Assembly (NCBI GenBank): GCA_016124895.1
Contig: WGMU01000170.1
Span: 1-56,362 of the forward strand
Origin: a bacterium
GTDB lineage: Bacteria > Planctomycetota > Planctomycetia > Planctomycetales > Planctomycetaceae
DNA: 56,362 bases
Direction of reading: 5' to 3'
The notes below the pieces were generated by a model. The model was not told the DNA's origin. It ran no database searches and worked only from the letters and a program-made list of their open reading frames with translations. The translations under genes and the position numbers were made by a program. Positions 14,314-34,234 of the stretch are shown here, one piece after another (the first letter of the stretch is position 1; each line of letters opens with the position of its first letter).

Positions 14314-14739
14314 ATGAGACTGCGACGCAACTCCAACCTGCTCGTCGAACCGCCGTCCAGCGCGACGGGCGATATTGCGTTTAATCTGATCGTCTTCTTC
14401 CTCGTCTGCGCCTCGATTCAGCCGGACAGTGGCCGCAAGCAGACGTTGCCGAAAGCGGATCAGGTCGAGCAGGAAGAACAGCAGACGGAAAACATCCAGG
14501 TCGAGATTGCGCGCCAAGCGGTCTTTCTGAACGGCGACCTGATCGCGATGAAGGACTTTCAGCCGCGGTTGAAGGCAAAGCTCGATGTCAAACCGCGGCC
14601 TGAGGACAAGGTTGTCGTCGTCAAGAGTCGCAAGGACACGCCGTACTCGCAGTGGATCGCCGTGACGTCGCGGATCGAAGACGCGGGCGGCATCGTCACG
14701 CTGCAACTCGAAGAAGAGCAGACGGTGGCGGTGCCATGA
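14314..14739 (+). CDS. ExbD/TolR-family protein, first copy (141 aa)
   Basis: ExbD proteins span the inner membrane once and form the proton pathway with ExbB. Here a short basic N-terminus leads to GDIAFNLIVFFLVCASI, one membrane helix with the expected acidic residue Asp20, followed by a periplasmic domain of about 100 residues. Length matches the family. The stop overlaps the start of the second exbD (ATGA), so the two are translationally coupled. No exbB is adjacent; the only ExbB-type gene in the window begins at 33311. Confidence 0.85.
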   Translation: MRLRRNSNLLVEPPSSATGDIAFNLIVFFLVCASIQPDSGRKQTLPKADQVEQEEQQTENIQVEIARQAVFLNGDLIAMKDFQPRLKAKLDVKPRPEDKVVVVKSRKDTPYSQWIAVTSRIEDAGGIVTLQLEEEQTVAVP

Positions 14740-15143
14740 AGATCAAACGCAAAACGTCGCGAGCCGAAGTGCCCAGCATGGCGATGGGTGATATCGCCTT
14801 TAACCTGCTGATCTTCTTCGTAATCCTCGCGCGAGCCCAGGACGACAGCCATCTGCAGTGGACACCGGCCAAAGCCGCGAACATTGAAAGTGCGGGCAAC
14901 TCGCGAGTCAGCATCGTCGTCGATAAAGACAACAAACTGTATCTCAACGGCGGTGAGATCGGCGTCGGCCAGTTGGCCGCCGCGATTCAGGAAGAACTCG
15001 GCAACGCGCCCGCCGGTGAGCGAGTCGTCCTGCTGAAAGTTCATCAGGAGATTCTCGCTCAGCGGTTCGAGCCAGTCATCGAAGCCATCAGCGAGGCCGG
15101 CGGCGACCTCGTGCATATCGTCGAAGACGAAAACAAGAAGTAG
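14736..15143 (+). CDS. ExbD/TolR-family protein, second copy (135 aa)
   Basis: A paralogue of the preceding protein. The basic start MKIKRK is followed by MGDIAFNLLIFFVILA with Asp19 in the membrane helix, then a periplasmic domain that ends with a charged EDENKK tail. I choose ATG 14736, which overlaps the upstream stop by 4 nt, over the longer open frame from 14652, because the motif order fits only the shorter form. Paired non-identical ExbD subunits suggest a heteromeric stator unit (inference). Confidence 0.85.
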   Translation: MKIKRKTSRAEVPSMAMGDIAFNLLIFFVILARAQDDSHLQWTPAKAANIESAGNSRVSIVVDKDNKLYLNGGEIGVGQLAAAIQEELGNAPAGERVVLLKVHQEILAQRFEPVIEAISEAGGDLVHIVEDENKK

Positions 15144-15149
15144 ATCGAG

Positions 15150-15662
15150 ATGGAACAGACACGCAAACAACTCGAAGACCAGCCGAAACCGTCAACGGGC
15201 ATTGCTGGTGACATGAAACGTCTGCACGGCGACGCGTCGGCAACGGCTGCCGAACTCCGCGAGTTCGTCGCGACGCTCAAAGGCCGCAGCCCGGCCGAAG
15301 TGCTGGGCGCGATCGGCGAAAGCAGCCTGTTCCAGGGCATCGTGCAGGCGACGATCGGCTGCGTCGTCCTGCTCGTTGTGTTCACCGTCGGCCCGTATCT
15401 GTTGCACGGCCCGGCAGAAGCCTCAACGCCGGACGCGAAAGCCGCCGTGGCCGACACGGCCGCCGAACCTGTGGCGACCACTGCCGACAATGCCGCTCCG
15501 GCGAACGGCTTGGCAACCGCGAAGACAGAAGCGTCTGCCGAAACAGGCGCGGACGTCGAAAAAGCCGCGAAGGCAATGGGCATCGACGAAACCCGGCAGG
15601 CCGACCCGAAGACCAACCCGCTCGACAAGAACCTCGACAGCCTGCTTGACGGAGTGAATTAA
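15150..15662 (+). CDS. Single-pass membrane protein of unknown function (170 aa)
   Basis: Not recognised as a named family. A soluble N-terminal part of about 65 residues is followed by one membrane helix (IVQATIGCVVLLVVFTVGPYLL, about residues 64-85) and an Ala/Thr/Asp-rich, probably disordered, periplasmic tail that ends in a short Asp/Leu-rich segment (LDKNLDSLLDG). It begins 7 bp after the second exbD and is clearly in the same operon, so it may be an accessory or linker (TonB-like in topology only) of the ExbBD motor. It has no TonB C-terminal domain. Confidence 0.75.
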   Translation: MEQTRKQLEDQPKPSTGIAGDMKRLHGDASATAAELREFVATLKGRSPAEVLGAIGESSLFQGIVQATIGCVVLLVVFTVGPYLLHGPAEASTPDAKAAVADTAAEPVATTADNAAPANGLATAKTEASAETGADVEKAAKAMGIDETRQADPKTNPLDKNLDSLLDGVN

Positions 15663-15673
15663 CGAACTCAATT

Positions 15674-15802
15674 GGGTGGCCGGGGCTGGAGCGAGGTACG
15701 AGCGAAGCCCCGGTTGCGAATTTCCCTTTTCAAAGAATATCTAAACTCTGCGATCTCTCGTTCCGGGGCTTCCTTCGCAGGCTCAGTCCAGCCCCGGCCA
15801 CC
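15674..15802. repeat. Long inverted repeat, CCGGGGCTGGA family, copy 1
   Basis: A perfect 17-bp pair forms the outer stem: GGGTGGCCGGGGCTGGA (15674-15690) with its complement at 15786-15802. An inner GAAGCCCCGG/CCGGGGCTTC pair extends it. It lies between the one-pass membrane protein and the DUF4159 gene. A second copy with the same internal words is at 44247-44360. Likely roles are an RNA hairpin or a dispersed element. Confidence 0.85.
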
Positions 15803-15910
15803 CAGTCCTGAATATCGTCACTCGGACGAGACTAACTGCTGCCGGAACGGCGCGGAGCTTGTTTCGGCCTACTCACTACTGCCCATTCCCGACTGCCCCG
15901 CTTCGCATTG

Positions 15911-17398
15911 ATGTTCCAACGTCTCACATCATCTCCAACCTTCAAACGTACCGCCGCTGCAGCGGCGGCGTGGCTGCTGTGCGCGATGGACTGGATGTGG
16001 TGGCAGAAGGCTCCGGCTTGGGCATCGGGGATCGTGTTTCTCGCGGTTGCGAGTTTCGCAGCCGGTGCAATGGTGAAAGCATCGAAGAGCCGCCGCGAGA
16101 ATCCGGTCCGCTTCGCGGCAGTGATCAGTGTTGCGTTTTTCCCGATGTGGACGCTGGTCGTGTTCGGTCTCGACTGTCTGGAACTTGCCGGGGCGCGTGT
16201 CTGGTGTGCCCGGATGGGAACCGCGACGGCGTACTTTGGCGGGCTGGCCTGGGTGATCTGGCTGATCGAGAAGGCGGCTCGCGAGTTCGACCTCAAACGC
16301 TTTGAGCAGCAGCACAAGGCAGACGGTGAGTCGATCCTCGCCGCGGTACTGCATGGCAAGGAACTTGATCACTCGCCGATTGAGCGGACCGCTAACCCGC
16401 TCGACCCAGAAGCCTGGTACTACGGGAAGAAGTCGAAGCGGCTGAATCAGTCGCTGGCGGCGTTCATGAGTTACTCGCTGGTCTTCTTCGTCGCCTTCCT
16501 GGTCATCACGCAGATGGGCGGCTGCCAGGAGATCTACGAGATGCCGGCGGGCGGGGGCGAGCAGCAGCAGATCGCTCAGCAGGTCAAAGTGCAGAAGATC
16601 ATCCGCAAGAAGTTCGTCGTGAATCCATTCGCGGCAATCAGCTTCAAAGTGCCGCCGATCGACGAGATCAAGCTGCAGCTCAACGAGATTACCAAGCACG
16701 CCTACACGGTCGGTTACGGCCAGGGAACAGGGGCTGGTTTCGCGGGCGGCACAAAGCTGGGCAAAGTGCGGTTCATCCGACTGGAATATCAGGGCGGTGA
16801 CTGGGATCAGGACTTCGGCATCGGCGCCGACGTCAACATGCTCATCGAATACGGCATCCGAACTCAGCAGAAGGTGGAGAAGGTCACGGAGTCACGTACG
16901 ATCGGGGAACTCAACAACTTCCCGATCGGCAAGAGTCCACCGTTTGTGTACATGACCGGCCAGCGGAGCATTCAGCTCTCGAAGTCAGAAGTAAAGACCC
17001 TGCGCGAATTCCTGCTCGATAAGCACGGAATGCTGTTTGGCGATAACGGCGGCAGCCGCGGCTGGCACAGCCAGTTTCTGGCCGTGATGAACCAGGTGCT
17101 GCCGAACGTACGCCCAACTCCGATCCCGCTCGACGACCAGATTCACCGCATTCCGTATCAGATCCCGTTTCTGCCGTATGTCGCTCCGCACGGTGGCAAA
17201 GAAGCACTCGGTTGGCGCGTCGACGGTCGGCTGGTCTGTTATTACCACCCTGGTGATATTGGAGACGCCTGGACCGACGACCATTCAGGCGTCTCGCCGG
17301 AGATCTGGGAAGCCTGCTACCAGCTCGGGACCAACGTGATTTTCTACGCTCACACGGAGTACGCGAAATGGCTCGCCGCACGACAGCAAACGGACTGA
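15911..17398 (+). CDS. Polytopic membrane protein with C-terminal DUF4159 domain (495 aa)
   Basis: The N-terminal 115 residues hold about four membrane helices, and a fifth lies near 185-205 (LVFFVAFLVITQMGG). A Gln/Lys-rich stretch follows, then a domain matching DUF4159 to the end (contains RFIRLEYQGGDWDQDF and, near the C-terminus, the NVIFYAHTEYAKW motif). DUF4159 proteins often accompany regulatory or motor ATPase and ExbBD clusters, but their biochemical role is unknown. ATG 15911 is used; a TTG just before it is also in frame. The last 31 bp overlap the next gene, so the two are coupled. Confidence 0.8.
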   Translation: MFQRLTSSPTFKRTAAAAAAWLLCAMDWMWWQKAPAWASGIVFLAVASFAAGAMVKASKSRRENPVRFAAVISVAFFPMWTLVVFGLDCLELAGARVWCARMGTATAYFGGLAWVIWLIEKAAREFDLKRFEQQHKADGESILAAVLHGKELDHSPIERTANPLDPEAWYYGKKSKRLNQSLAAFMSYSLVFFVAFLVITQMGGCQEIYEMPAGGGEQQQIAQQVKVQKIIRKKFVVNPFAAISFKVPPIDEIKLQLNEITKHAYTVGYGQGTGAGFAGGTKLGKVRFIRLEYQGGDWDQDFGIGADVNMLIEYGIRTQQKVEKVTESRTIGELNNFPIGKSPPFVYMTGQRSIQLSKSEVKTLREFLLDKHGMLFGDNGGSRGWHSQFLAVMNQVLPNVRPTPIPLDDQIHRIPYQIPFLPYVAPHGGKEALGWRVDGRLVCYYHPGDIGDAWTDDHSGVSPEIWEACYQLGTNVIFYAHTEYAKWLAARQQTD

Positions 17399-19008: not shown

Positions 19009-19046
19009 CCCATCGCCGATTCCTCCGATCTCCGTTCACCATAACT

Positions 19047-19075
19047 TTGCGGAATCTCGAATCAGAGATTGATAA
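19047..19075 (+). promoter_or_regulatory. Possible promoter with dyad in the spacer
   Basis: TTGCGG (19047-19052) and TGATAA (19070-19075) are separated by 17 bp, inside an AT-rich island in otherwise GC-rich DNA. The spacer contains a perfect dyad AATCTC-N6-GAGATT (19053-19070), a possible operator. This would drive the DUF1549 gene starting at 19230. Weak evidence. Confidence 0.3.
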
Positions 19076-19229
19076 ATCAGCGAACGAAAATACGATCACG
19101 CCGGTTACCCGCAAGCGGCTGGTGCGTCCGGGTGAGCTGGAAAGCTCGACGATTGCCGATCTCGTGACACCGGACGGGCACTCTGCTGACAAAGGCCGCG
19201 TTTTCTTCCGACAGTGGGAGTTCAGGACT

Positions 19230-21416
19230 GTGAAGACTCGTTGGATGCGACTGTTTGTGGGAGCCCTTCTGACGGCTGGGCTGACCAACGGAGTACAGGC
19301 AGCGGAGCTGGCGGCGTCCGAAGCCACTGGAACTGCTCTGAGTCAGACGCTGAATCAGGAAAATGCGGAGCTGAAGATCGAACTGAGGCCGGCCGACCTC
19401 GTCGATGACATGGCTTACCTCCGCAGGGTTTCGGTTGACCTGATTGGAAGGATCCCGACACACGACGAGATTCAGGAATACATGGCCTGGCCTCCGGTCG
19501 AGCGTCGCTCGAAAATCGTCGACAAGCTGATGGCCGATCCTCGCTTCGTCGACCGCTGGACAACCTTCTTTGCTGACATGCTGCGGCTGCGGTCGAACTC
19601 GCCCGGTGGAGCGGCTGCCCTGGCCTTCGTCCACCAGGCTCTGCAGGACGACATGCCCTACGACGAGCTGGCAAAGCGGTTCATTTCGGCAAACGGCAAG
19701 GCCGGTGCTGTTCCGGAAGTCGCCTACGTGCTCGGTGACAACGCCGACCCGATGGCCCTCGCCGGAGCGACGGCTCAGGTGTTTATGGGACTGCGCATCT
19801 CCTGTGCTCAGTGCCACGACCATCCGTTCGACAAGTGGACACGTCGGGATTTCTACGGATTCGCGGCCTACTTCGGAAAAACACGGCGTTACGAAAACGA
19901 CTTCACGAACACCGTCTACACGCAGGAAGTCAACGCGTCATCCGTGCTGTGGCCGCCACAGGGTGACGCTCCGGACAGCGAACGGAAGCCAGTCGATCCG
20001 AAGTTTCTGGTCGGCCTGATCGAAGCCAGCGCGAAGCCACGGTTCATCGCCCGCCTTGATGAGAAGCGACAGAGCGAAGCAGAATTCGCCGAAGCCGCGC
20101 TGGCTGCAACCGAGAAAGCAGATTCGATCGACGACCTGCTGCTCGACGCCGCTGACAAAGCCGTCAAGGCGTCAAAGGGCCGCGGCAAATCATCATTTGA
20201 CATCGCCACCGAAGCAAAGAAAGAACGAGAAGCGATCGACCTGACCGCCGCGATGAACAAGGCCAGCGAACTGCGGACGGAGCTTGGCGACCTGATCGCC
20301 AGCCCGCGAAACCGCTACTTCGCCCGCTGCTTCGTCAACCGCGTCTGGGCCGATCTGGTCGGCCGAGGCTTTGTCGAACCGATCGACGATTTCTCAGACA
20401 GCAACACGCCGACACACCCGCAGACGCTCGACTTCCTGGCGAACGAATTTGTTGCCAGCGGTTTTCAGTTCAAACCCCTGATCAAGATGGTCGTGACCAG
20501 CGAGCCTTACCAGCGGGGGCAGGCGGTTGGCGTCTCGGAACTGGATCAGGAAGAGCTGCAGGCGGCGTTTCTGGCGGCTCCCGCTCGCCGGATGCTCAGC
20601 GAAGTGATGTACGATTCGATCATCACGGCCGGGCACCTGTTCGAGTACAAGCACCCGCAGGGCGCGAACATGAAGACCGTCACCGACCGCATTCGAGTCG
20701 CCGTGCCACGTGAAGGTGAAGATCTGGCTGCCGTGCCTCAGGACCTGGCAGCGGCTGCTGGACAGGGCGGTGCCATGAAACGGCAGATGGGTGCTCAGCC
20801 TGAAATGCGCCGACCGGGCTACAACCTTGAGTCCGGCATCGAACTCGATTTCGACGCCGTGCTGAAGAAAGCAAAGGAAGAAGCCACTGAGGCCGTCCAG
20901 GTCGAAAAGATGGCTGTCAAATCGGCCGAGGAACTCGAAGCCGAGCGGATGCTGACGGACACCAGCAACCGTCGCCGATTCCGTTACGTTTACCAGACCG
21001 TTGAGCGGACCTTCGACGACAACCCCATGTTTGGATCGTCATTCCGGATGGCATCGCCTGCGAATCCCGAGCACTTCATTCGCATCTTCGGCCAGACTGA
21101 CCGCTCTCAGGTCGGCGTCACCCGCGATCATGCTCCCAGCATGAGGCAGGCTCTGATGATGCTGAACGGGAGGATGACTCACGAAGCCTCGCGCGTCGGA
21201 CCCTTCGAGCCGATGTACGCACTGCTGAGCGGTGAGAAGGCGGACCTCGACAAGGCAGTCGAACTGGCTTACCTCGAAATCCTCACGCGGAAGCCTCAGG
21301 CGGACGAAGTCGGACTTGCAAAGTCGATCGTCACCGAGGGTGAAACGCCACTGGAGGGCATGGCCGATCTCCGCTGGGTGCTGCTGAACTCAAACGAGTT
21401 CCGTTACCTGCCATAA
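19230..21416 (+). CDS. DUF1549/DUF1553 secreted protein (728 aa)
   Basis: A planctomycete-type PSCyt2/PSD1 protein. A signal peptide (VKTRWMRLFVGALL.., cleavage near VQAAE) precedes the DUF1549 domain with VSVDLIGRIPTHDEI and the CAQCH motif (Cys192, Cys195, His196) in RISCAQCHDHPFDKW, then the DUF1553 domain with the NRVWADLVGRGFVEP motif. No separate N-terminal cytochrome domain is present, unlike the relative at 47965-50424. A charged insertion of about 70 residues lies between the two domains. GTG 19230 is chosen because GGGAG lies 9 nt upstream and gives a signal peptide; the frame is open from 19047. It pairs with the DUF1501 gene downstream. Confidence 0.88.
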   Translation: MKTRWMRLFVGALLTAGLTNGVQAAELAASEATGTALSQTLNQENAELKIELRPADLVDDMAYLRRVSVDLIGRIPTHDEIQEYMAWPPVERRSKIVDKLMADPRFVDRWTTFFADMLRLRSNSPGGAAALAFVHQALQDDMPYDELAKRFISANGKAGAVPEVAYVLGDNADPMALAGATAQVFMGLRISCAQCHDHPFDKWTRRDFYGFAAYFGKTRRYENDFTNTVYTQEVNASSVLWPPQGDAPDSERKPVDPKFLVGLIEASAKPRFIARLDEKRQSEAEFAEAALAATEKADSIDDLLLDAADKAVKASKGRGKSSFDIATEAKKEREAIDLTAAMNKASELRTELGDLIASPRNRYFARCFVNRVWADLVGRGFVEPIDDFSDSNTPTHPQTLDFLANEFVASGFQFKPLIKMVVTSEPYQRGQAVGVSELDQEELQAAFLAAPARRMLSEVMYDSIITAGHLFEYKHPQGANMKTVTDRIRVAVPREGEDLAAVPQDLAAAAGQGGAMKRQMGAQPEMRRPGYNLESGIELDFDAVLKKAKEEATEAVQVEKMAVKSAEELEAERMLTDTSNRRRFRYVYQTVERTFDDNPMFGSSFRMASPANPEHFIRIFGQTDRSQVGVTRDHAPSMRQALMMLNGRMTHEASRVGPFEPMYALLSGEKADLDKAVELAYLEILTRKPQADEVGLAKSIVTEGETPLEGMADLRWVLLNSNEFRYLP

Positions 21417-21507
21417 GAACCTGCTCGTCTCGCTGTTCGAGGATTGCTCGGGCCGCGAGGTTTACGCTCACGAAACTCTTCCTTACCCCTTTCCAAAGGA
21501 CGCACTC

Positions 21508-22764
21508 ATGAAGGGTTGCTTCGACTACCAGTGTACTCGCCGTGCGATGCTCGGCTCGACCGCCGCCACGCTGATGGGGTTCTCGATTCGCGACCTGCTG
21601 GCCGCCACGGGACGGGATCATGTTCCGACCGCGGAGCACGTGATCTTCTTCTGGAATGGCGGAGGCATGACGCATTTGGATACGTGGGATCCAAAGCCCG
21701 GTCGACCGACGCAGGGCGAATTCGAGCCGATCGACACGTCGGTTGCCGGAATGCGGATCAGCGAGATCTTCCCGGAATTCGCCAAAGAGATGCACAACGT
21801 TGCCCTGGTTCGCTCGATTGCTGGAACGCAGGGCGCTCACGAACGAGCGACCTATCAAGTGCAGACGAGCTACAGCCAGACGCCGAATGTCGTCCATCCT
21901 GGATTTGGCTCAGTCGTCGTTCACGAAAAAGAACAGCTCGGCGATCTGCCGGCGTACGTGACGATCAGCGGGCAGGCTCCGCGCGCCTCTTACCTCGGCC
22001 AGAAATGTGCTGCGTACTTCGTCGGCAGCCCTGGCGACAAAGACCCGTACCTCGCCTTCCCGGAAGGAATTACCAGTGTCCGCGGTAACAAGCGGCTCGA
22101 AACGCTCGCCCGCTTCAACTCAAAGTTTGCCAGTAAGACGACGAGTGAAGAACTCGGAGCAACGCGGACGTCGATCGACGAAGCCGTGCGTCTGATGCGC
22201 AGCCCGGCACTGAAAGCCTTCGAGCTGGATCACGTGCCGCTGTCCGAATTCGAACGTTATGGCGACACGCCGTTCGGTCGCGGCTGCATGGTTGCGAAAC
22301 AGCTTGTCGAGACCGGCGTCCGCTTCGTGCAGATCAACCGTGGCGGTTTCGACACGCACACCAGCAACTTTGAAGCCATGCGAAATCACGGCGAGATCAT
22401 GGACCCGGCGCTTGCGTCGCTGATTCACGATCTCGCGCAGTCCGGCCTGCTTGAGAAAACGCTCGTCGTCATGCTCAGCGAGTTCGGTCGCACGCCGAAG
22501 ATCAACAAGGACGCTGGCCGCGATCACTACCCGGCTGTCTTCAGTTGCTTCATGGCCGGTGGCGGTATCAAAGGCGGTCAGGTCATCGGTTCCTCGGATG
22601 AGGACGGTTACCAGCCGAAGGATCGGCCGGTGAAGATCCCCGACCTGCACGCGACGCTGGCTCACGCTCTGGGCATCGATCCCGATAAGGAAGTGATGAC
22701 CCCCCTGCAGCGGCCGATGAAGCTGGTCGACAACGGCAAACCCGTGCTCGAACTGTTCGGCTGA
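21508..22764 (+). CDS. DUF1501 protein, Tat-type export signal (418 aa)
   Basis: DUF1501 proteins have a sulfatase/alkaline-phosphatase-like fold and are almost always encoded next to DUF1549/DUF1553 genes. The N-terminus has CTRRAMLGSTAATLMG, a twin-arginine-like signal. Typical motifs follow: FFWNGGGMTHLDTWDPKP, then the C-terminal LSEFGRTPKIN and GRDHYPAVF. AAAGGA precedes the ATG by 6-9 nt. It is followed by a rho-independent terminator, so the 19.2-22.8 kb pair closes one transcription unit. Confidence 0.92.
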   Translation: MKGCFDYQCTRRAMLGSTAATLMGFSIRDLLAATGRDHVPTAEHVIFFWNGGGMTHLDTWDPKPGRPTQGEFEPIDTSVAGMRISEIFPEFAKEMHNVALVRSIAGTQGAHERATYQVQTSYSQTPNVVHPGFGSVVVHEKEQLGDLPAYVTISGQAPRASYLGQKCAAYFVGSPGDKDPYLAFPEGITSVRGNKRLETLARFNSKFASKTTSEELGATRTSIDEAVRLMRSPALKAFELDHVPLSEFERYGDTPFGRGCMVAKQLVETGVRFVQINRGGFDTHTSNFEAMRNHGEIMDPALASLIHDLAQSGLLEKTLVVMLSEFGRTPKINKDAGRDHYPAVFSCFMAGGGIKGGQVIGSSDEDGYQPKDRPVKIPDLHATLAHALGIDPDKEVMTPLQRPMKLVDNGKPVLELFG

Positions 22765-22787
22765 GCGGGATTTTGACTGACTAATCG

Positions 22788-22821
22788 GAAGCCCGGTTTC
22801 ACGCGAAGCCGGGCTTCTTTT
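22788..22821 (+). terminator. Rho-independent terminator after DUF1501 gene
   Basis: GAAGCCCGG (22788-22796) pairs with CCGGGCTTC (22809-22817), with a 12-base loop, and TTTT follows directly (22818-22821). It is placed 24 bp after the stop codon. Confidence 0.85.
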
Positions 22822-25387: not shown

Positions 25388-25433
25388 TCAAAAGCAGTCT
25401 TCTGCCACACCTCGCAGACTGGTGGTAAGTGAT

Positions 25434-28400
25434 ATGAAACTGATCCTGAACGCTGCCTTGCTGACAGTCCTGTTTGGAACGACGGCTCCTCTCTTGGCGC
25501 AGGATGCTCCGCCGATTGATGACGTCAGCAAAGAAGCAACGCGTCTGGAAGGCGAACTCGGTAAGTACAAGGACTCCGCTCCGGAAGCCGGCGAGGCGCT
25601 GGTGAAGCTCACAGAGCTTTACCACTCGAATGGGAGAGTCTTCGGACTGGTCCGGGCGGCGCAGCGGTTTGTGGCGGCTCACCCGTCCGACCCGCGGCAC
25701 CCGGCGGTGATGCTGAAGCTGCTGGACGGTCTGGAAGCGCTGACGCGGCACAAGGAATTCACCGTGATCGCGCGGCAGTTCCTGACGCGTTATCCGCAGG
25801 CTGCCGAGTGTCCCGACGTTGAGGAACGCCTCGCCTACACGCTCGAAAAGATGGGCGAGAAGCTGCCGTCGGCCGAGGTCTATCGTGCCCGCTGGTCACG
25901 TGAGGCGAATCCGAATGGGCGGTCGTTCGGAGTGAAGGCGTGCGAGTTATTCTCGCAGTCCGGCAATCCTGGCATTCTTGCCGGTGCGGAGCTTGCCGAA
26001 GAGATGTTCGACAAGCTGCCCAAGGACGACTTCGCGCGGTACATCGGGCAGCGGTCGTACTACGAATGGCGGCGCGTCGGTCAGTGGGCCAAAGCCAACG
26101 TGATGGGCAACAAACTGGCGAAGTCCGGGCTGCTGAAGGACGCGGAAGAGAAACGCGAAGTGTTGCGCACGATGGCCGAAAACTACGGCTACCTTGGACA
26201 GCACTCGAATGCGGTCGAGATGCTCAAACAGGTGCGTCAGATCCGCGACGATCAGTGGGCACTCTACTACCACATTCAGCGGTTGTACGACTCAGCGGCT
26301 CCGGCAGCGGAAATGGAGCCGCTGGTCAAGCAGTATCTCAACACTTATCCGGACCGCGACGACCGGCACGACCGCATGGGGCTGCTGGCGATCGCGTGGA
26401 ATCGAGAGAAGAACACCGAACAGGCTCAGAAGCTGTTCCGCTCGCTGCTGCCGCTGGCTCCACAGACGCACAGCGTGGCCTCGTACTTCTACCAGTTGAA
26501 CGGGTACGAGGAAGCTCAACTGAAGGACACGGAAAAGGCTCTGCTGCAAGCCATTCCGCAGTGCGAAAAGAACAATCCGCAGCAGGTCTGGTATCTGCGC
26601 TACATTCTCGGCTTCTCGGTCTATCGCGATCAGATGAAGGATCCGGCAAAGGCCAAGGCCGTCCTGCGCGAGCTGGTTGAGAAGTCACCGACAAACGACG
26701 GCAACATCTGGAACGTCATCTCATGGCTGCTGTCGAACGCCGAATCCGATCAGGAGTTTCAGGCCGACGTCGCTCGCATTCTGAAGACGCGACGCGAGTA
26801 CGCTCACTGGCGGAATCTGGCGCAGTACCCGCCGAACTGGGTCAAGAGCGTCCGACGCGACAAGGATCTCGAGCCGCGGATTGAGTTCCTGCGGACAGCC
26901 ATCGAAAAGGCCGATCAGGATCCAGTCTTCCGTCTCTTCAGCGAAATGGACGGGCGGGTTAACGGCGAAAACGACGTACGGCTGCGCGAGCAACTGCTGA
27001 AGCCACAGGTCTTCAACACGCTGAATGCCGACCTGAAGCAGTTCGTGCTGTGGGGACAGGGTTACTTCTACCAGCACTACTCACGCGGTGAAGAACGATC
27101 GAACGCGGCGATGTACTACGCGCGGCTGGTTGAGATGTTTCCGGAGAACTTCGAGTACCGGTACCGCTATCTGCAGGTCGCGACGGACTACTCTCAGCCG
27201 GAAGTCGCCAAAGAGGCGGCGCTGACGATGCTGGCTGTTGTACCGACGTCGAACAACGCCGACATCTGGCGGCGTCTCATCGTCGCGGCGGAAATGAACA
27301 TGGATGCGGAACTCGCCCGCCGTGCGCTCGCCTGGCGCAAGACGTCGATGGATCAGTTCGGCCCGGATTACGGAAATGCTGCCGGCATCGGCGACGCGCT
27401 GCAGCGGCTGGAACTGGCTGCTGAGGCCGTCGCTGTGTGGACGGATGCAGCGAAACCAGGCCTCAACAATTACGAGGGGCGGGAGTGCTCGTGGCGGCTC
27501 TTCCAGAAGATCGAAGACCCGCAGCAGAAGATCGCGTTTGCCAGGGAGCGGTTTGCTCCTGAGACCGATTTTCATGGTCGCTACGCGCAATGGCTGGCTG
27601 ATACGCAGTTGCGAACAGGCGATCTCAACGGGTTTGAGAAGACGCTGGCCGAGACCCGAACGCGGGCTCAGAACCGCCCGTTCAAAGGCTGGGATCTCGA
27701 TGCCTGGGGCCTGCACTACATGCTCCATAACTACCGGTCGAGCCAGGCGGATTATCGAGCGGATAAGGAGCAGGAAAACACGCCTGAAAACATCCTTCGC
27801 GTGGCTCGCGTGATTCGCGACATGGAGTTCGACTGGCCATCGGCTCAGGCTGCGCTGATGCTGCTGGAAGCCGAAGCTCCCGACGCAAGGAAGCCGATCG
27901 AGCGGCTGCTGGCCTGGGAACGAGTGACTCGCCCGCTGTATCCAGATTCGCATCGCTGGGATCAGTTGATGCCGTTTGCCCAGGCTGCCGTCACGCGGCA
28001 GGACTACAGTGTCGCCGCGACACTGCTCACCGGGATGCTCGAAAACCTGACGAACATCACAGACAACCGGAAAGAAGCCGGACGGGCCATGATTGGGCAG
28101 TGTTATACGCGGCTCGGCACGGTCGGCCTGACGATTGACGAAAACAGCCCGATCGCTCCCCTGCTGCAGGCGGCGCTGTATCTGCGGCTGGGTGATGAAC
28201 GGCTCGCGCTCGACACGTATCTCGCCAATCAGAAACTGTTCGACGAGCACCGTGACGAAGTGCCGGTCGATCTGCTGGTCTTCGCCTGCGAAAACATGAT
28301 GGCGGCTGGCGGTGATGAAAATCACAACCACGTCGAAGACATCCTGCGAAGCTGGATCATCAAAAACAGTGAGCAGACGACAGTCACCGACGAAACGAAA

Positions 28401-31400
28401 GCCCAGATTCAGTTTCTGCTGGCGAAGAACTTCTTCTCGGCTCAGCGTTACGACGTCGCCCGGTCCGAGTATCAGACGGTGATTAACCGTTATTCGGCAA
28501 CGCACTTCGCAACCGAAGCAGAGTTCGGAATCGGTGAGACGTTTATGGCTCAGAAGGTCTACGACCAGGCGGAGCAGGTTTTTGAGAAGCTTGCCAACAG
28601 TCGCGAAGCGGACATCGTCGTCCGCGCCGAGTTTCTCCGCGGTGTACTCGCTCATCGTCGTGGTGATAACGATGAGGCTCGCGACATCTTCCGCGTCGTC
28701 CTGGAACGCGTGCCGAACATCGAACTGGCGAATCAGGCACTGTTCAACCTCGCCGAAGTTTACGGCGACGAAGAACGCTACATGGACCAGCTTCAACTGC
28801 TGATGACCGTCGGCCGGCTGGGACGCGTCAGTAAACGGCAGCACGCTCCGGGAATGCCGCTTTCGATCGTCGTGCAGGACAGCGACCTGGGGATCAGCCG
28901 CGGGCACAACCGGATTCCGGTCATCGTGACAACCGTGCCCGGCGGCGATGAGGAACTTGTTTACCTCACCAGTGGTGGAGCCGGTAAGGGGCTGTTCCGC
29001 GCGGATGTTGATACGGAACTCGGACCAGTCACGAAGGGCGACAAGGTGCTGCAGCTTTCTGGCAACGATGTCATCAAATCGGACTATCCGCAGGAATTCA
29101 AATCCGAGTTCAAAAGCGTGCCGCTGTCCGACGTTGAGATCCGCATTGCGTCAGACGCTCTGTTTGAAGTGGCGAGCAGCAAGATCCGAGACGAGGAAGA
29201 GGAGACGTTCAGCGAACGACTGGAACGCGAAGCTCGCGAACGGGAACTGGCGGACGAACGGCAGTCGCAGCAGCGACCGAAAAATCAGATCAAGCCTGGC
29301 AACCCGATTTATCTGCGGGTCAAGGACGGCGACCGTGACCTGACCGATTCGACGGACGAGATCGTTGCGAAGCTCGTTGCCGATTCGGGCGATCAGGTGC
29401 AGGTCAAGCTGGTCGAAACAGAACCGCACTCCGGCGTGTTTGAAGGTCTGGCGAAAACAGGCGAGCTTCCCGCCGGCGCTCTGGCGACGGACACGGCGAT
29501 TGATCACAGCCCGCTGATGGCGATTGACAACTCAACCGAAACGTTCTGGCTGAGCGAGCCGGATGGAGCGACGCCGAAGCAGCTCACGGTCGACATGAAA
29601 GATCTGCACACGATCGCGCGGGCGAAGTTCTTCACTCCAAAAGTGGATGAGAACCGCCCGGTGCGCGGCGAACTGCAGGCCAGCTATGACGGCGAGTTCT
29701 GGTATCGTGTGGCCGCTCACCCGGCGATTCCGGATGCGGCACCGGTTTCCGGCGAAATCGGCGCGATGCAGTATCGCGTCTATTCAGGGAACTCGACGAA
29801 TTACACGAGCTGGCAGCAGGTCGTGAATCTCTCGAATGGCGAGCCGATCGAACAGGGCGTCGTCGCTGATGGTCAGCTCCGCTGGACGCGACCGGATGAA
29901 GAAGAGAGATCGCGTCCAGCATCGGTGATCTGGTCCGGCTACTTCGTGCAGCCACGTGACGGAGCAGTCCGCTTTCAGGTGCGAGGTTTCCGTTCGGCCT
30001 TGGCGATCAACGGCATCCTGCAGATCGAAGTCGGCCCGGGAACGCAGACTGTCGACGTGTGGCTGAAGAAGGGCGTGCATGCGCTGACGGCGTTCGCGTC
30101 GCTGCAGCAGAACATGGCCGAAGCGTCCGTCGTGCGGGCTCGGTCAGACCTGAATCGTCAGCAGGTTGTACTCAGCCCGTTCCTGTCGAGCGACTTTGAC
30201 CTGGCGAACCTGCCTGACGGAATCACCGTGCCGCAGTCGGTTGAAACGGCGGCAGCTTCGCCGGACGAAATACCAGGCGTGATCACGCTTGGCCTTGAGA
30301 CCGCTCAGTTCAATAAGAAGACCGAGCAGTTCGGGATCAACGAGCAGAATGGTCAGAAGCGCATTGGCTACTGGCAGGATCTGGAAGACTCGGTCTATTG
30401 GGAATTCGACGCTCCAGTCGGCATGTACGACGTCTGGCTGGAGTTCGCGCATCAGGGCGGCGGCTCACAGTACATGGTCAAGTTCGGCGACCAGAGCATC
30501 AGCTCTACGGTGCCGAACACCGGCAACTGGAGCACGTTCCGCACCGACCAGATCGGCACGCTGGTTGTCGATGCAGGCGGCAAGGCGAAGCTGTCCATTC
30601 ACCCGGTGGCAATCAACGGCGGCGGGACGATGGACCTTAAGAAAGTGGAACTGCGACCGGCAAGTGGCTCGCGCGTGATCCTGTCCGACGCAGCCTGGGA
30701 GTTCCGCTTCGACCCGATCGATGTGCGTTTCACCCGGTTCGTGATCAATGAATATCTCGGGGAAGCCGTCGCGCTGAACCACGTCGAGATTTCTGGCAGC
30801 GACCGGACGAACCCGATTATTCCGACGGAAGCTGACGTGCTGGCACTGTCGGAAAACGACACGCTGGAAATCGCCGGTGGCGACGTCGTGACCGCCAGCT
30901 ACACCGATGAAGTCACTCAGGCGAATTCAGGTGGCAGCCGGTTGTTGTCCGGCAAGCTGCAGGCAACCTACTTCAACGGCGCAGTTGCTCCCATTGCGTA
31001 TGCCTTCGTGCGGCAGAACAACGGAGCCGTGCAGGAGATTCGCAAGCGTCTGATGCGCGTTGATCCCGGCGAGCGGGTCGTTGTCGAGATCGTCGATTAC
31101 GACCGCGATCAGACGGTGACGCGCGACAAGTTGCAGTTTGAGGTCAGCGTCAACGACGGCGAACCCGTCACGCTGACCGCGACCGAAACTGAAGAGAACT
31201 CGGGTATCTTCACGAAAGAAGTCGACACCGCCGCAAAAGCTGATGGCGACAAGCTGGTCGTAAAAAGCGGCGACCGGATCAACATCCGATACCTCGACGA
31301 GCAGAACACGTTCCCTGGTCACTCAGTGCCGCGCGAATCGGTCGTCTATGTGAACCGTCCGACCGAAGCACGAATCCGAATTCTGGAATCCCGGCTGCTG

Positions 31401-33155
31401 ACTCCACGCCGGGGATCAACTGCTCCACCGCGTTTCAGCTATCAGCCACCGGAGGAAGGCAGCGAACTGGCGACCGTCGCGTTTGAAGCGCCACTGACGA
31501 TCGAAGTGATCGATCCTGACTCGGCGAAAGACAGCCGCAGTGAAGTGACTGTCAATCTGGAAACGACCGACGGCGCGAAGGTCGACGTCCGCTGTCTTGT
31601 CTCGGCGGCGTTTACCAACGTGCCGAATCAGGATGCCGAGAGTTACGCCCTGGAAGAAGGCCGCTTTATCGGCCAGATCGTGATGCAGCTTGGCTCGAAA
31701 GCCAGTCCGACGATCGTACCCGTCACTTCCGAAATGCCGCGTAACCTGATCGGCGGCGGCAAGACCGGTGACGAAGAAGAAGGCGGCATGTCGAGCATGG
31801 ACGAAGGGCTCGTCGTCGCTGTGCTGAATCTGACTGGTAAGGATCGGATCGCTGCCAACTACAAAGACGAGCGGCATCCGAAAGAGTCAGCAGCGGTGAT
31901 CAGCAGCAACGGCCGGCTGATCTCGAACGGCGAACTGGCTTCGCTGGACCGCGACTACAACAAGCCGGTCGATCGTCTGCACGTCGGCGAAAAGCTGTAC
32001 CTGATGGTCACGGACGCCGACCAGGATTCCTCAGACGAGCGCGATGTCGTGACTGTTGAAGTGGCGTCTGAGTTCGGTGAAAAGGAAAGCGTGCAGCTTG
32101 TCGAGACACTGGCTCACAGCGGCGTCTTCACCGGGTCACTGGTGCTTAAGTCGAACGACAAACCGCAGCCCGGCAACATCGACATGAACGATCCGCAGGT
32201 TGAGTCCTACTTTGGGGACACACTAACAGTAACTTATGTGGATACTGCCGCAAGCACCGAGGAAGGCACGCTGGAACTGAATACTCAGCTTCCGGTCGTC
32301 ATTGGCACCGACGGGCTCGTCTCGGCGTTCAGCAAGACGTTCAACAATGAAACACTGGCGGTCGAAACGAAGTTCCATGTGGCCGAAAGCTACTTCGAAC
32401 TCTTCAAGAGCCACAAAAATCTCGGCCGTTCAGAAGAGGAGAAAGCCGACCTTGCCGCTGGTCGTCGCGTACTGCGTGAGGTGATGGAGGATTATCCGGA
32501 CCCGAAATATCAGCCGCGAATTCTGTACCTGCTGGGGCAGTTCGCACAGGAACTGCAGAACGTGGATGAGGCTGTCGCTGCTTACGAGCAGATCGTGACG
32601 CAGTTCCCTGATCACCCGTTGGCAGCGGACGCTCAGTACAAGCTGGCTCAGACGCACGAAGAGAGCGGCGACTTTGACGACGCTCTGGAAGCTTACGTCA
32701 CGCTGGCGGCGACGTATCCGAAGAGTCCGCTGATCGCGAACGTGATGATCCGCATCAGCGACCATTTCTACAAAAACGAGGAGTACCCGATCGCGGCCGA
32801 AGTCGGCAGGAAATTCCTCGAAAAGTTCGAGGGCCATGAGTTCGCGTCACGCATCGCGTTCCGCATCGGGCAGTGCTACTACAAGGCCGAGCAGTTCCCG
32901 GTTGCCGGCAGTTCGTTCGACGAGTTTGCGAAGCGGTTTCCGGACGATGAATTGTCGGCCGACTCGCTGTTCTGGGCGGGTGAGAGTTTCCGCATGGCGA
33001 ACAACAACCGCGAAGCCTTCCGGCGTTACAACCGCTGCCGCTGGGACTTTCCGGCGAGTGACGCAGCCAAGTACGCCCGCGGCCGACTGGCTCTGCCGGA
33101 AATGCTGCAGCAGTTCGAGGCGGAAGCAAACGCGGTGGAGAATGACACGAACTGA
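25434..33155 (+). CDS. Giant secreted protein: TPR arrays flanking beta modules, discoidin-like and PA14-like regions (2573 aa)
   Basis: The signal peptide MKLILNAALLTVLFG leads to cleavage after LLAQ. Residues about 40-1150 are TPR/helical repeats. Near 1295 comes the first beta module (VKDGDRDLTDSTDEIV ... HSGVFEG). About 1356-1440 resembles a discoidin (F5/8 C) fold, and 1440-1575 a PA14-like region (SGYFVQPRDGAVRFQVRGF). About 1615-1742 resembles a carbohydrate-binding beta sandwich. Further modules follow, with DYDRDQTVTRD...NSGIF, DPDSAKDSRSEV and DADQDSSDERDVV...HSGVFTG. A second TPR array fills about the last 280 residues. Domain names other than TPR are by resemblance only. ATG 25434 is used. 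An adhesive or scaffolding cell-surface role is inferred. Confidence 0.85.
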   Translation: MKLILNAALLTVLFGTTAPLLAQDAPPIDDVSKEATRLEGELGKYKDSAPEAGEALVKLTELYHSNGRVFGLVRAAQRFVAAHPSDPRHPAVMLKLLDGLEALTRHKEFTVIARQFLTRYPQAAECPDVEERLAYTLEKMGEKLPSAEVYRARWSREANPNGRSFGVKACELFSQSGNPGILAGAELAEEMFDKLPKDDFARYIGQRSYYEWRRVGQWAKANVMGNKLAKSGLLKDAEEKREVLRTMAENYGYLGQHSNAVEMLKQVRQIRDDQWALYYHIQRLYDSAAPAAEMEPLVKQYLNTYPDRDDRHDRMGLLAIAWNREKNTEQAQKLFRSLLPLAPQTHSVASYFYQLNGYEEAQLKDTEKALLQAIPQCEKNNPQQVWYLRYILGFSVYRDQMKDPAKAKAVLRELVEKSPTNDGNIWNVISWLLSNAESDQEFQADVARILKTRREYAHWRNLAQYPPNWVKSVRRDKDLEPRIEFLRTAIEKADQDPVFRLFSEMDGRVNGENDVRLREQLLKPQVFNTLNADLKQFVLWGQGYFYQHYSRGEERSNAAMYYARLVEMFPENFEYRYRYLQVATDYSQPEVAKEAALTMLAVVPTSNNADIWRRLIVAAEMNMDAELARRALAWRKTSMDQFGPDYGNAAGIGDALQRLELAAEAVAVWTDAAKPGLNNYEGRECSWRLFQKIEDPQQKIAFARERFAPETDFHGRYAQWLADTQLRTGDLNGFEKTLAETRTRAQNRPFKGWDLDAWGLHYMLHNYRSSQADYRADKEQENTPENILRVARVIRDMEFDWPSAQAALMLLEAEAPDARKPIERLLAWERVTRPLYPDSHRWDQLMPFAQAAVTRQDYSVAATLLTGMLENLTNITDNRKEAGRAMIGQCYTRLGTVGLTIDENSPIAPLLQAALYLRLGDERLALDTYLANQKLFDEHRDEVPVDLLVFACENMMAAGGDENHNHVEDILRSWIIKNSEQTTVTDETKAQIQFLLAKNFFSAQRYDVARSEYQTVINRYSATHFATEAEFGIGETFMAQKVYDQAEQVFEKLANSREADIVVRAEFLRGVLAHRRGDNDEARDIFRVVLERVPNIELANQALFNLAEVYGDEERYMDQLQLLMTVGRLGRVSKRQHAPGMPLSIVVQDSDLGISRGHNRIPVIVTTVPGGDEELVYLTSGGAGKGLFRADVDTELGPVTKGDKVLQLSGNDVIKSDYPQEFKSEFKSVPLSDVEIRIASDALFEVASSKIRDEEEETFSERLEREARERELADERQSQQRPKNQIKPGNPIYLRVKDGDRDLTDSTDEIVAKLVADSGDQVQVKLVETEPHSGVFEGLAKTGELPAGALATDTAIDHSPLMAIDNSTETFWLSEPDGATPKQLTVDMKDLHTIARAKFFTPKVDENRPVRGELQASYDGEFWYRVAAHPAIPDAAPVSGEIGAMQYRVYSGNSTNYTSWQQVVNLSNGEPIEQGVVADGQLRWTRPDEEERSRPASVIWSGYFVQPRDGAVRFQVRGFRSALAINGILQIEVGPGTQTVDVWLKKGVHALTAFASLQQNMAEASVVRARSDLNRQQVVLSPFLSSDFDLANLPDGITVPQSVETAAASPDEIPGVITLGLETAQFNKKTEQFGINEQNGQKRIGYWQDLEDSVYWEFDAPVGMYDVWLEFAHQGGGSQYMVKFGDQSISSTVPNTGNWSTFRTDQIGTLVVDAGGKAKLSIHPVAINGGGTMDLKKVELRPASGSRVILSDAAWEFRFDPIDVRFTRFVINEYLGEAVALNHVEISGSDRTNPIIPTEADVLALSENDTLEIAGGDVVTASYTDEVTQANSGGSRLLSGKLQATYFNGAVAPIAYAFVRQNNGAVQEIRKRLMRVDPGERVVVEIVDYDRDQTVTRDKLQFEVSVNDGEPVTLTATETEENSGIFTKEVDTAAKADGDKLVVKSGDRINIRYLDEQNTFPGHSVPRESVVYVNRPTEARIRILESRLLTPRRGSTAPPRFSYQPPEEGSELATVAFEAPLTIEVIDPDSAKDSRSEVTVNLETTDGAKVDVRCLVSAAFTNVPNQDAESYALEEGRFIGQIVMQLGSKASPTIVPVTSEMPRNLIGGGKTGDEEEGGMSSMDEGLVVAVLNLTGKDRIAANYKDERHPKESAAVISSNGRLISNGELASLDRDYNKPVDRLHVGEKLYLMVTDADQDSSDERDVVTVEVASEFGEKESVQLVETLAHSGVFTGSLVLKSNDKPQPGNIDMNDPQVESYFGDTLTVTYVDTAASTEEGTLELNTQLPVVIGTDGLVSAFSKTFNNETLAVETKFHVAESYFELFKSHKNLGRSEEEKADLAAGRRVLREVMEDYPDPKYQPRILYLLGQFAQELQNVDEAVAAYEQIVTQFPDHPLAADAQYKLAQTHEESGDFDDALEAYVTLAATYPKSPLIANVMIRISDHFYKNEEYPIAAEVGRKFLEKFEGHEFASRIAFRIGQCYYKAEQFPVAGSSFDEFAKRFPDDELSADSLFWAGESFRMANNNREAFRRYNRCRWDFPASDAAKYARGRLALPEMLQQFEAEANAVENDTN

Positions 33156-33158
33156 ACT

Positions 33159-33271
33159 GTAGCCGGGTTTCTTCGAAACCTGGTCGATCGCGGAGTGAGG
33201 TTGCACCCGCGAAGCTACCTTCAACTCAGTCAACGTGAAATCTCACGTTCTTCGAGTTTCGGAGAAACTCG
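33159..33271. repeat. Cluster of hairpins upstream of exbB
   Basis: The outer pentamers GTAGC (33159-33163) and GCTAC (33214-33218) enclose a CCGGGTTTC-TTC-GAAACCTGG hairpin and a CGCGG/CCGCG stem. Further on are ACGTGA/TCACGT (33233-33249) and CGAGTTTC-GGA-GAAACTCG (33253-33271). They fill the gap between the giant gene and exbB, starting 3 bp after the giant gene's stop. They may terminate the first and regulate the second. Confidence 0.6.
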
Positions 33272-33310
33272 CCGACAGTTGGCAACTTTGAATCTGCACC
33301 TGGAAGTCGC

Positions 33311-34234
33311 ATGTTTTCGATTCTGTATCTGGCACTGTTACTCGGTCAGGCTCCAACTGCAGCAACGCCTGCGGAATCGCCTGCGGCTGTCACGACCGAA
33401 GCTCCTGGCAGCGAGGCTGCCGCTGCACCAACCGACAACGCAACGACTGAGCAAGAGGCGTCGGAGGATACTGCCACAGGCGAAGCTGCTGTTGACGAAG
33501 AGGACTCTGAAAGCGACGACGGATCGACGGGCCTGATGGACAAACTGGCGGAGATCTCGGAGTCCGGGGCGATCGGCTTTCTCAACCGCGGCGGCATCTT
33601 CATGTGGCCGATCCTGTTCCTCGGCGTGCTCGCGGCCGGCGTCATCATTGAACGGTATCGCAGCCTGAAGCTTCTCACGGCCGATTCGGGCACGGTCCGG
33701 GACGACGTTCTGCTGATGCTGCGTGAGGACCATATCGAAGAAGCCATGCAGCTTTGCGATCGTGAACAGGGACCGGTCCCTGCGATACTTTCTGCCGGCC
33801 TGCGGAAGTTTCTGATTCTGCGGCGACTGAATTACGACGCCGCGAAGATCGAGGAGCAGGTGCTCAAGGCGATGGACGATTACGGAGTCCATGTGGTCGC
33901 GGCTCTGGAGAAACACCTGCCGGTCCTGGCGACGATTTCGAGTGTCGCTCCCATGCTTGGGTTCCTCGGAACGGTCGCCGGGATGATCACGTCGTTTGAC
34001 GAAATCGTGCTCAAAATGGGTGAGACGAACATCGTCGAAGCGGCGGCCGGCGGAATCAGCGTCGCGCTGCTGACGACGGCGTTCGGGCTGATCATCGGCA
34101 TCCCGGCGTTCATGGCGTTTAACTATTTCTCCAGCATCATCAATCGCTTTGTGCTCGAGATCGAAGAATCGGCGACTCATCTGATCGAAGCGGTAACGCT
34201 GCAGCTTGCGCTGGAGCAGCAGGCGCAGCAGTAA
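33311..34234 (+). CDS. MotA/TolQ/ExbB-family proton channel protein (307 aa)
   Basis: Three membrane helices fit ExbB/TolQ: about 95-115 (IFMWPILFLGVLAAGVII), 204-228 (LATISSVAPMLGFLGTVAGM, with the conserved Pro and Gly) and 250-275. A cytoplasmic domain lies between the first two. An N-terminal hydrophobic segment is followed by an acidic Thr/Ala/Glu-rich stretch (about 15-72), an addition not seen in the short E. coli ExbB. ExbB pentamers with ExbD couple proton flow to work in the envelope. The two exbD genes of this window lie 19 kb upstream on the same strand; whether they pair is inference. Confidence 0.9.
   Translation: MFSILYLALLLGQAPTAATPAESPAAVTTEAPGSEAAAAPTDNATTEQEASEDTATGEAAVDEEDSESDDGSTGLMDKLAEISESGAIGFLNRGGIFMWPILFLGVLAAGVIIERYRSLKLLTADSGTVRDDVLLMLREDHIEEAMQLCDREQGPVPAILSAGLRKFLILRRLNYDAAKIEEQVLKAMDDYGVHVVAALEKHLPVLATISSVAPMLGFLGTVAGMITSFDEIVLKMGETNIVEAAAGGISVALLTTAFGLIIGIPAFMAFNYFSSIINRFVLEIEESATHLIEAVTLQLALEQQAQQ

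Follow-up and report, generated by a model that had tools for sequence, protein, structure and literature searches.

A candidate ExbB/ExbD-driven envelope machine with a giant secreted TPR protein, conserved and patchily distributed in Planctomycetota and Verrucomicrobiota

Introduction

What work might a proton-driven motor of the ExbB/ExbD type perform when its genes lie among those of very large secreted tetratricopeptide repeat (TPR) proteins? The question is raised by positions 14,314 to 34,234 of contig WGMU01000170.1 (assembly GCA_016124895.1) from a planctomycete of the family Planctomycetaceae; the window below means the whole stretch of 56,362 nucleotides that was analysed. This locus carries an exbB-type gene, two exbD genes, genes for a one-pass membrane protein (here p3) and a polytopic membrane protein with a DUF4159 domain, and genes for three secreted TPR proteins (TPRa, TPRb and a giant). 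The original prediction, made from the sequence of the window, took them for parts of one envelope machine. We find that the system is real, conserved in two phyla and patchy. Its core genes very probably encode one motor-driven machine, a conclusion that draws on gene linkage and co-occurrence. Our best explanation, to which we give a probability of about one half, is an envelope machine that is driven by proton-motive force and handles glycans.

Motors of this family also turn up in flagella. They further drive TonB import, the Tol-Pal system and gliding (PMC12204202, PMC3169522). In planctomycetes, carbonyl cyanide m-chlorophenylhydrazone (CCCP) abolished the uptake of green fluorescent protein (GFP) and dextran, and macromolecules accumulate in the periplasm by mechanisms described as unclear (PMC5394234); the uptake of chondroitin sulphate has been ascribed to an analogous but unknown mechanism (PMC5520146). 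Among the mucin utilisation loci of Akkermansia, MUL1 has been likened to the Sus system and MUL2 is reported to be pilus-related (PMC13174399). A search of the open-access literature, with subscription literature and preprints outside its scope, found no published description of the present gene set, and no paper on DUF4159 was found in open-access full text.

Gene order and linkage

A genome-wide scan returned 222 relatives, and the best 80 loci were fetched for linkage counts, each count using only those loci whose contig gave enough flank. Phylum labels were taken from record titles: 24 of the 80 loci belong to Verrucomicrobiota, and the other 56 to Planctomycetota or to unlabelled records. 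Nearly all of the related contigs come from metagenome-assembled genomes (MAGs), Verrucomicrobiaceae bacterium E54 being an exception, and the sequence sets include near-identical species.

In relatives from both phyla, the genes stand in the order TPRb-giant-exbB-exbD1-exbD2-p3-DUF4159-TPRa. The run from the giant to the DUF4159 gene is present in G104, G094, G108, G110 and G088; TPRb precedes the giant wherever the contig reaches (those of G108 and G088 end inside the giant), TPRa follows the DUF4159 gene in G094, G110 and G088 and was not found in G104 or G108, and the complete set was seen in G271 and G316. The window copy is permuted, with the second half of the operon placed before the first; the contigs of G079, from the same genus, agree with this arrangement. 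The permutation, a feature of this genus, accounts for the distance between exbB and the exbD genes in the window. The arrangement giant-exbB-exbD-exbD-DUF4159 is retained in more distant versions (G061 contig C110, G056, G009, G240, G224, G312, G238 and the second copy of G109); in most of them a protein fills the p3 slot between exbD and DUF4159, and no clear p3 frame was seen on G061 C110.

Counted over the fetched loci, p3 is linked in 52 of 52 Planctomycetota-or-unlabelled loci and 19 of 20 from Verrucomicrobiota, and two exbD genes are found in 44 of 46 and 15 of 18, respectively. Upstream of the DUF4159 gene, exbB is present in 39/43 and 15/17 loci (54/60 together) and the giant in 37/42 and 11/16 (48/58 together); TPRa lies downstream in 41/52 and 19/20. 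The claim that the motor, the one-pass protein, the DUF4159 protein and the secreted TPR proteins form a conserved unit is thus borne out by their linkage in relatives of two phyla, and the expectation that the set would stay together in planctomycete genomes held, the ordered core recurring on dozens of contigs.

Several variants were seen beside these. A third version (L134 and L135, from G185 and G061) has a polytopic p3-slot protein of 365-380 residues and a DUF4159 protein of 640-690 residues, with TPRa downstream; no giant was found upstream, the sequence of L135 ending about 1.2 kb past exbB. Two tandem DUF4159 genes follow p3 in G009 (L084:8390-11622), both with the Ser-x3-His helix motif described below. 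In G084 (L060/L103), the giant is 72% identical to that of the window and the DUF4159 protein 53%, as if the split halves differed in history.

Genomic distribution

The co-occurrence sample comprised 59 relatives. A search with the giant protein (cut-off E <= 1e-25) gave matches in 11 genomes, each from the family to which the window belongs, and a 26-member profile of the window-type DUF4159 protein (cut-off E <= 1e-60) matched nine, all of them among those 11. Giant and DUF4159 type therefore occur together in 9 genomes, neither occurs in 48, and the giant is found alone in 2 (G090 and G092), both fragmented drafts in which the giant matches stop at contig edges. The contrary pattern raised by the original prediction, with giant TPR genes and exbB occurring without the exbD and DUF4159 genes in most relatives, was not what we observed. 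In length, the window's DUF4159 type stands apart from the other DUF4159 proteins encoded in these genomes, and in five giant-less genomes searched with PF13709 every DUF4159 frame was of a different length. Other DUF4159 genes of the window's own genome, on contigs C138 and C190, served as an internal control: no exbB, exbD or giant was detected around them within the fetched 20 and 18 kb.

Farther afield, four strong giant matches were found in a 79-genome sample of the phylum (G000, G009, G056 and G061). The same four are among the 13 genomes with the DUF4159 type in a sample of 392, within which the inclusion of the 79 is unconfirmed. Of 145 genomes in the family to which one Akkermansiaceae MAG belongs, 36 have a match at E <= 1e-40.

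The motor

By its sequence, the motor belongs to the proton-channel family: both subunit types score above their Pfam cut-offs (Table 1), and the helix Asp and Thr motifs are conserved. Among open reading frames (ORFs) from the 80 loci, with the pattern accepted anywhere in the ORF, D[IVL]A is kept in 122 of 133 ExbDs; of the 59 ExbBs, 58 keep GTV and 54 the second Thr motif. The ExbD motif is missing from 11 ORFs, and four of these were inspected: in one the residue at this position is unread, one is likely in the wrong frame and two have a changed motif. The two ExbDs of the window are clearly different sequences. In NCBIfam, the ExbB scores 105.4 bits to TolQ (cut-off 221) and 69 to ExbB (cut-off 206.2), and the ExbDs reach 19.9 bits to ExbD_2 (cut-off 123.45) and 30.2 to TolR (cut-off 127.3). 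Since these curated scores fall far below cut-off, the motor lies within the family and outside these named systems. A comparison with PADLOC defence models, made with Zorya-type defence motors in view, gave no match at E <= 0.001 for exbD1, exbD2, DUF4159, exbB or TPRa.

The window's own genome has nine PF01618 matches, and the original prediction had named a separate exbB beside exbD elsewhere in the genome as a point that would count against it. Such pairs do exist, on contigs C112, C69 and C168. They say little, because each of these exbB genes has exbD genes of its own and because the window-type exbB of the relatives directly precedes exbD1. On C154, C179, C97, C153 and C183, PF01618 genes were found with no exbD detected nearby. 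A role for one of the genome's other exbB genes in completing the system is unlikely.

Two of these contigs, C69 (L098) and C112 (L094), carry TPR(~380 aa)-exbB-exbD-exbD sets that resemble the published TPR-tolQ-tolR-tolR operons of the Planctomycetes-Verrucomicrobia-Chlamydiae (PVC) group. No long same-strand frame follows the set on C69, and an open frame near the exbB/exbD genes of C112 spans 5077 codons or more (L094:4769-19999).

Candidate output proteins

The original prediction saw room for a new kind of transducer because no TonB C-terminal domain was present. No such domain was found: the Pfam matches listed for the window genes at E <= 1 do not include PF03544 (for TPRb, the listed matches are those of 28 families less the three weakest). 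A new transducer is plausible, with p3 and the polytopic DUF4159 protein as the candidates; a motif like that of TonB and TolA is confined to a sister clade.

The protein p3 is predicted to cross the membrane once. Over 72 sequences of the window clade (rows containing X dropped), the mean frequency of the most common residue is 0.60 in the cytoplasmic segment, 0.45 in the helix, 0.24 in the low-complexity linker and 0.56 in the tail, which typically reads MGIxET..ADPxxNPLDxxLDxLLDG. A tail that is conserved past a variable, flexible linker suggests a docking peptide, for which the TPR proteins would be the obvious partners.

The DUF4159 protein is predicted to be polytopic, as the original prediction had it, and its helix count was refined by an AlphaFold 2 (AF2) model. 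The model has a mean predicted local distance difference test (pLDDT) score of 79.4 and five long helices N-terminal to the domain, which we read as probable membrane helices and of which a plain hydropathy scan picks up only three. The distribution of charges agrees with a DUF4159 domain on the outside. The fold of the domain matches 4i66 closely (Z 23.6, 186 aligned residues, 1.7 Å), glutamine amidotransferases being remoter, with Z up to 9.6. In Pfam, neither the DUF4159 protein nor p3 matched a vWA family at E <= 1. Around residue 379 of the window protein, an invariant Asp is followed by Asn-Gly in the window clade and by Cys-Gly in several clade II proteins; together with HGG and HPGD..DAW, both nearly invariant, this position may belong to a ligand site in DUF4159.

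A FastTree phylogeny of 126 DUF4159 proteins, rooted at the midpoint, separates a clade II of 32 (support 1.0) from a group of 94 that includes the window (support 0.55). Planctomycetes and verrucomicrobia are found in each clade, and G109 has proteins of both; several genomes of the Akkermansiaceae-family sample have two copies, with lengths and scores as expected for one from each clade. Ser-x3-His occurs in the last membrane helix of 31 of the 32 clade II DUF4159 proteins. Likewise, [S/A/T]-x3-H-x7-S occurs in all 10 single-helix clade II p3 proteins examined, a count that omits the polytopic p3-slot proteins (G185 C222 and G061 C50), G061 C110 and the Akkermansiaceae clade II loci. Both patterns resemble the Ser-His part of the SHLS motor-docking motif of TonB and TolA, the exact spacing in TonB being taken from general background. 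An SHLS motif with its His at the motor-binding site has been described for TonB, TolA and the new vWA transducers (PMC12204202). On the simplest reading, clade II would dock to its motor in the manner of TonB and TolA, through one or both proteins, and the window clade would have changed the interface.

The secreted scaffold

TPRa, TPRb and the giant each start with a hydrophobic stretch like a signal peptide, a prediction that agrees with the earlier one, and TPR families are matched above Pfam cut-off in all three. Where complete, the giants of the window clade have about 2390-2600 residues in both phyla and are conserved over nearly their whole length; across the system the scaffold protein ranges from about 2390 to 2900 residues. 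In clade II, similarity is limited roughly to residues 900-1400 and 1750-2570 of the window protein.

An AF2 model of residues 1186-1770 of the giant (P0008) has a mean pLDDT of 72.4, low across much of the first 200 residues. Within it, residues 1618-1747 align in VIA-align with the CBM6 module of an agarase (2cdp; Z 16.5, 123 aligned residues, 1.9 Å). The CBM6/35 fold of the modelled module is of a glycan-binding type, a shared fold being no proof of binding. Thirty-seven of 53 window-clade giants have the module; in the 16 without it the flanks abut within -40 to +37 residues. The module has been gained or lost at one fixed site. (The count excludes five double-named giants, one without both flanks and giants below 1000 bits, among them all of those in clade II.) For the neighbouring modules of the giant, Pfam F5/8 type C and PA14 fall below cut-off and the VIA-align matches are to CBM6/35; these are weak leads.

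G061 has three more giant-type genes, on contigs C43, C36 and C13 (L074-L077 and L080), and no motor genes were detected in the sequence fetched around them. Against the window giant, the C43 and C36 proteins outscore the motor-adjacent giant of G061, and the extra giants may be interchangeable scaffolds.

Proposed function and alternative explanations

We propose the following mechanism. ExbB and the two different ExbDs would form a proton-driven motor in the inner membrane, and p3 and the polytopic DUF4159 protein would be its membrane-anchored output parts. The first would reach into the periplasm by its flexible linker, with the conserved tail expected to lie in a TPR groove, and the DUF4159 domain could act as a receptor or clamp on the periplasmic side. 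The motor would then pull on or cycle the secreted scaffold of TPRa, TPRb and the giant of 2573 residues, whose beta modules, often including one of CBM6/35 type, might engage polysaccharide at or across the outer membrane. In this way proton-motive force could be turned into the capture, import or directed movement of large glycans.

Within this proposal, the linkage of the genes, the families of the subunits and the fold of the module are established, and the topology is predicted; tail binding by the TPR proteins and force transfer are conjectural, and a glycan cargo is tentative, a little short of even odds. The idea of such a cargo comes mainly from the presence of a glycan-binding type of module at one site of a motor-linked scaffold, and the module's fold speaks indirectly for the uptake of polymers, as the original prediction had suggested. 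A more specific version, in which a TonB-independent, proton-driven importer pulls the p3 tail within a TPR superhelix and carries an exchangeable glycan module at a fixed socket, is doubtful.

Several observations weigh against the proposed glycan-handling machine. The system is rare, being present in 13 of 392 genomes of the phylum and in 0 of 22 genomes of the same class from other families, and so it cannot be the general uptake route of planctomycetes. The module is optional, occurring in 1 of 11 verrucomicrobial giants and 36 of 42 others. No barrel, polysaccharide-degrading enzyme or sugar transporter recurs in the flanks of the 80 loci, where the search covered mostly the downstream flank, up to 10 kb, at a threshold of 8 loci, the region upstream of the giant being mostly out of reach. 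Some copies are split or have no giant beside the motor: the two operon halves lie on separate contigs in G084 and G109, G185 C233 has exbB-exbD-exbD-p3-DUF4159 with no giant alongside, and further linkage misses include those of the giant at L138, L141, L144, L192, L197, L182, L190, L201, L212 and L214. Finally, the window clade has no His in the best helix window of p3 (0/73) or in the last membrane helix of DUF4159 (0/94), so that docking like that of TonB or TolA is unsupported for the window copy.

Compared with known systems, the machine most likely has, by analogy, a plan like that of Agl-Glt and Tol/Exb. It shares with ExbB-ExbD-TonB the ExbB and ExbD families with conserved channel motifs, and it differs in having two ExbDs, with no TonB C-terminal domain found and no TonB-dependent receptor family listed in the cluster. 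The window's own genome has one separate TonB_C protein, on contig C123 (the sole PF03544 match), and two receptor barrels. The TPR-tolQ-tolR-tolR-vWA operons of the PVC group, as far as they are described in PMC12204202, have a TPR gene, one TolQ-like and two different TolR-like subunits, and an output protein that is anchored in the inner membrane and has an alpha/beta periplasmic domain; the S-x3-H of clade II is a further likeness. Here, in contrast, the alpha/beta domain is DUF4159, glutamine-amidotransferase-like and on a polytopic carrier, and a giant scaffold and p3 are present. Since no vWA domain is found by sequence and homology to Glt proteins is not shown, we class the system with neither the vWA operons nor Agl-Glt.

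Agl-Glt nevertheless suggests the alternative that survives best, although we consider it unlikely: a machine for surface motility or focal adhesion, in which the motor would pull the TPR scaffold along the envelope, with the giant holding on to the outer membrane or the substratum. In Myxococcus xanthus, Agl-Glt comprises the ExbB-type AglR, the ExbD-type AglQ and AglS, TPR proteins with signal peptides and a TPR protein of 4132 residues, and a two-hybrid assay detected an interaction between AglR and GltG, an inner-membrane output protein that has a TonB-like motif (PMC3169522). On the surface of the spore, Agl-Nfs is reported to rotate a carbohydrate polymer (PMC3858216). The parts list of the window system is alike, with one ExbB/TolQ, two ExbD/TolR, secreted TPR proteins, a giant TPR protein and an inner-membrane output protein. 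Of the NCBIfam models bearing on homology to Glt proteins, only GltE scored, at 30 bits over a stretch of the giant; that is far under the cut-off of 225 and looks like generic TPR similarity. The window system also differs in its polytopic DUF4159 protein, its one-pass p3 with a conserved tail, the optional CBM6/35-fold module of its giant and its occurrence in Planctomycetota and Verrucomicrobiota, and the scanned window genes have no barrel family in their Pfam matches.

Somewhat less likely again is a machine for export or surface assembly, whose motor would provide the force to secrete or assemble a surface layer, holdfast or matrix built of the giant beta/TPR proteins. The giant matches an anammox S-layer glycoprotein model at 24.5 bits (cut-off 1400), PorW/SprE, a TPR protein of type IX secretion, is matched by TPRb at 40 bits and by the giant at 51.9 (cut-off 250), and G061 encodes additional giants beside which no motor genes were detected. 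None of these models is matched above its cut-off, and the families that recur in the searched flanks include neither a secretin nor a barrel.

A system for envelope maintenance or division in the manner of Tol-Pal is improbable. Its motor subunit would be TolQ-like, as here, where ExbB scores nearer to TolQ than to ExbB, and TPRs that score as YbgF recall the CpoB/YbgF partner: TPRb (107.9 bits) and the C-terminal TPRs of the giant (142.4) exceed the NCBIfam YbgF cut-off of 90.1, possibly through generic TPR similarity, with scores of 40.5 and 66.8 to the CpoB model (cut-off 383). The two motor scores are far under their curated cut-offs, however, the cluster has no listed Pfam match to TolA, TolB or Pal, and the patchy presence in the 392 genomes is unlike that of a housekeeping system.

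That common families merely happen to be neighbours can be set aside for the core: the genome does hold many exbB and PSCyt2 genes, and the DUF1549/DUF1501 pair is probably just a local companion, but ordered recurrence in two phyla and co-occurrence across the 59 genomes rule chance clustering out.

If the proposed glycan importer is real, it would be one answer to how polysaccharides enter the periplasm in some Planctomycetota and Verrucomicrobiota (PMC5520146, PMC5394234). For its carriers the system offers a testable answer to macromolecule uptake, being too rare for a general one, and a concrete, knock-out-ready candidate for active polymer handling. The range of tasks open to such motors is widened by a further ordered gene set, shared by two phyla, which encodes two candidate output proteins and a scaffold of about 2400-2900 residues with a module of glycan-binding type at one fixed position.

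Gene features of the window and neighbouring genes

All of the predicted ORFs were recovered on the one strand, and all but p3 have Pfam matches above cut-off (Table 1). The overlaps are real, 4 bp (ATGA) between exbD1 and exbD2 and 31 bp between the DUF4159 gene and TPRa. The giant has 2573 residues when counted from the ATG at 25434, and 2577 from an upstream GTG.

Table 1. Features of the locus, with coordinates in the window
Feature	Position	Strand	Basis
exbD1 (ExbD/TolR subunit)	14314..14739	+	PF02472, 61 bits (cut-off 25.4); helix motif TGDIAFN; precedes exbD2 in relatives
exbD2 (second, different ExbD)	14736..15143	+	PF02472, 53.5 bits (cut-off 25.4); MGDIAFN; ATGA overlap with exbD1
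p3 (candidate tether/transducer, one predicted membrane helix)	15150..15662	+	no Pfam match; segment conservation in 72 sequences
Polytopic inner-membrane protein (predicted) with DUF4159 domain	15911..17398	+	PF13709, 103 bits (cut-off 25.9); glutamine-amidotransferase-like fold
TPRa, secreted TPR protein (predicted), 546 aa	17368..19008	+	Pfam TPR_6, 82.6 bits; downstream of DUF4159 in relatives
PSCyt2-PSD1 (DUF1549/DUF1553) protein, lineage-specific companion	19047..21416	+	Pfam PSCyt2, 128.4 bits; PSD1, 153.7 bits
DUF1501 protein, lineage-specific companion	21508..22764	+	PF07394, 344.7 bits
TPRb, secreted TPR protein (predicted), 807 aa	22867..25290	+	TPR_6, 114.4 bits; NCBIfam tol_pal_ybgF, 107.9 (cut-off 90.1)
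Giant secreted TPR/beta-module scaffold (predicted), 2573 aa	25434..33155	+	Pfam TPR families; YbgF-like TPRs near C-terminus
CBM6/CBM35-fold module of giant (P0008 residues 1618-1747), optional	30273..30662	+	AF2 model and VIA-align against 2cdp
exbB (ExbB/TolQ proton-channel subunit)	33311..34234	+	PF01618 MotA_ExbB, 95.1 bits (cut-off 22.9); between giant and exbD1 in relatives

The DUF1549/DUF1501 pair between TPRa and TPRb had been counted among the parts of the machine, and this did not stand. Orthologues of both genes lie beside the system in G079, G084, G109, G094 and G092, and the pair was not found beside the distant versions in G061 (G061c), G056, G009 and G109 (G109b). This result, together with the 98 PSCyt2 matches of the window's own genome (96 over cut-off), rules the pair out as a core part and marks it as a lineage-specific companion. 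The families that recur in the flanks of the 80 loci, named by cross-match, are PSCyt2 (18 loci), DUF1501 (11) and a mostly reverse-strand frame (9).

Scans of the window for terminators (22 sites against 18.7 expected) and promoters (1 against 3.6) were uninformative. A sequence search of the PDB gave a single match of note, 8zvk_A (E 2.4e-6), a weak lead. A further DUF1501/PSCyt2 pair is encoded on the opposite strand at 46090-50520 (-) of the window, and downstream of exbB, at 35656-39298 (+), there is a pair of genes for a DUF1592/1588/1587/1585/1595 protein and an HXXSHH protein.

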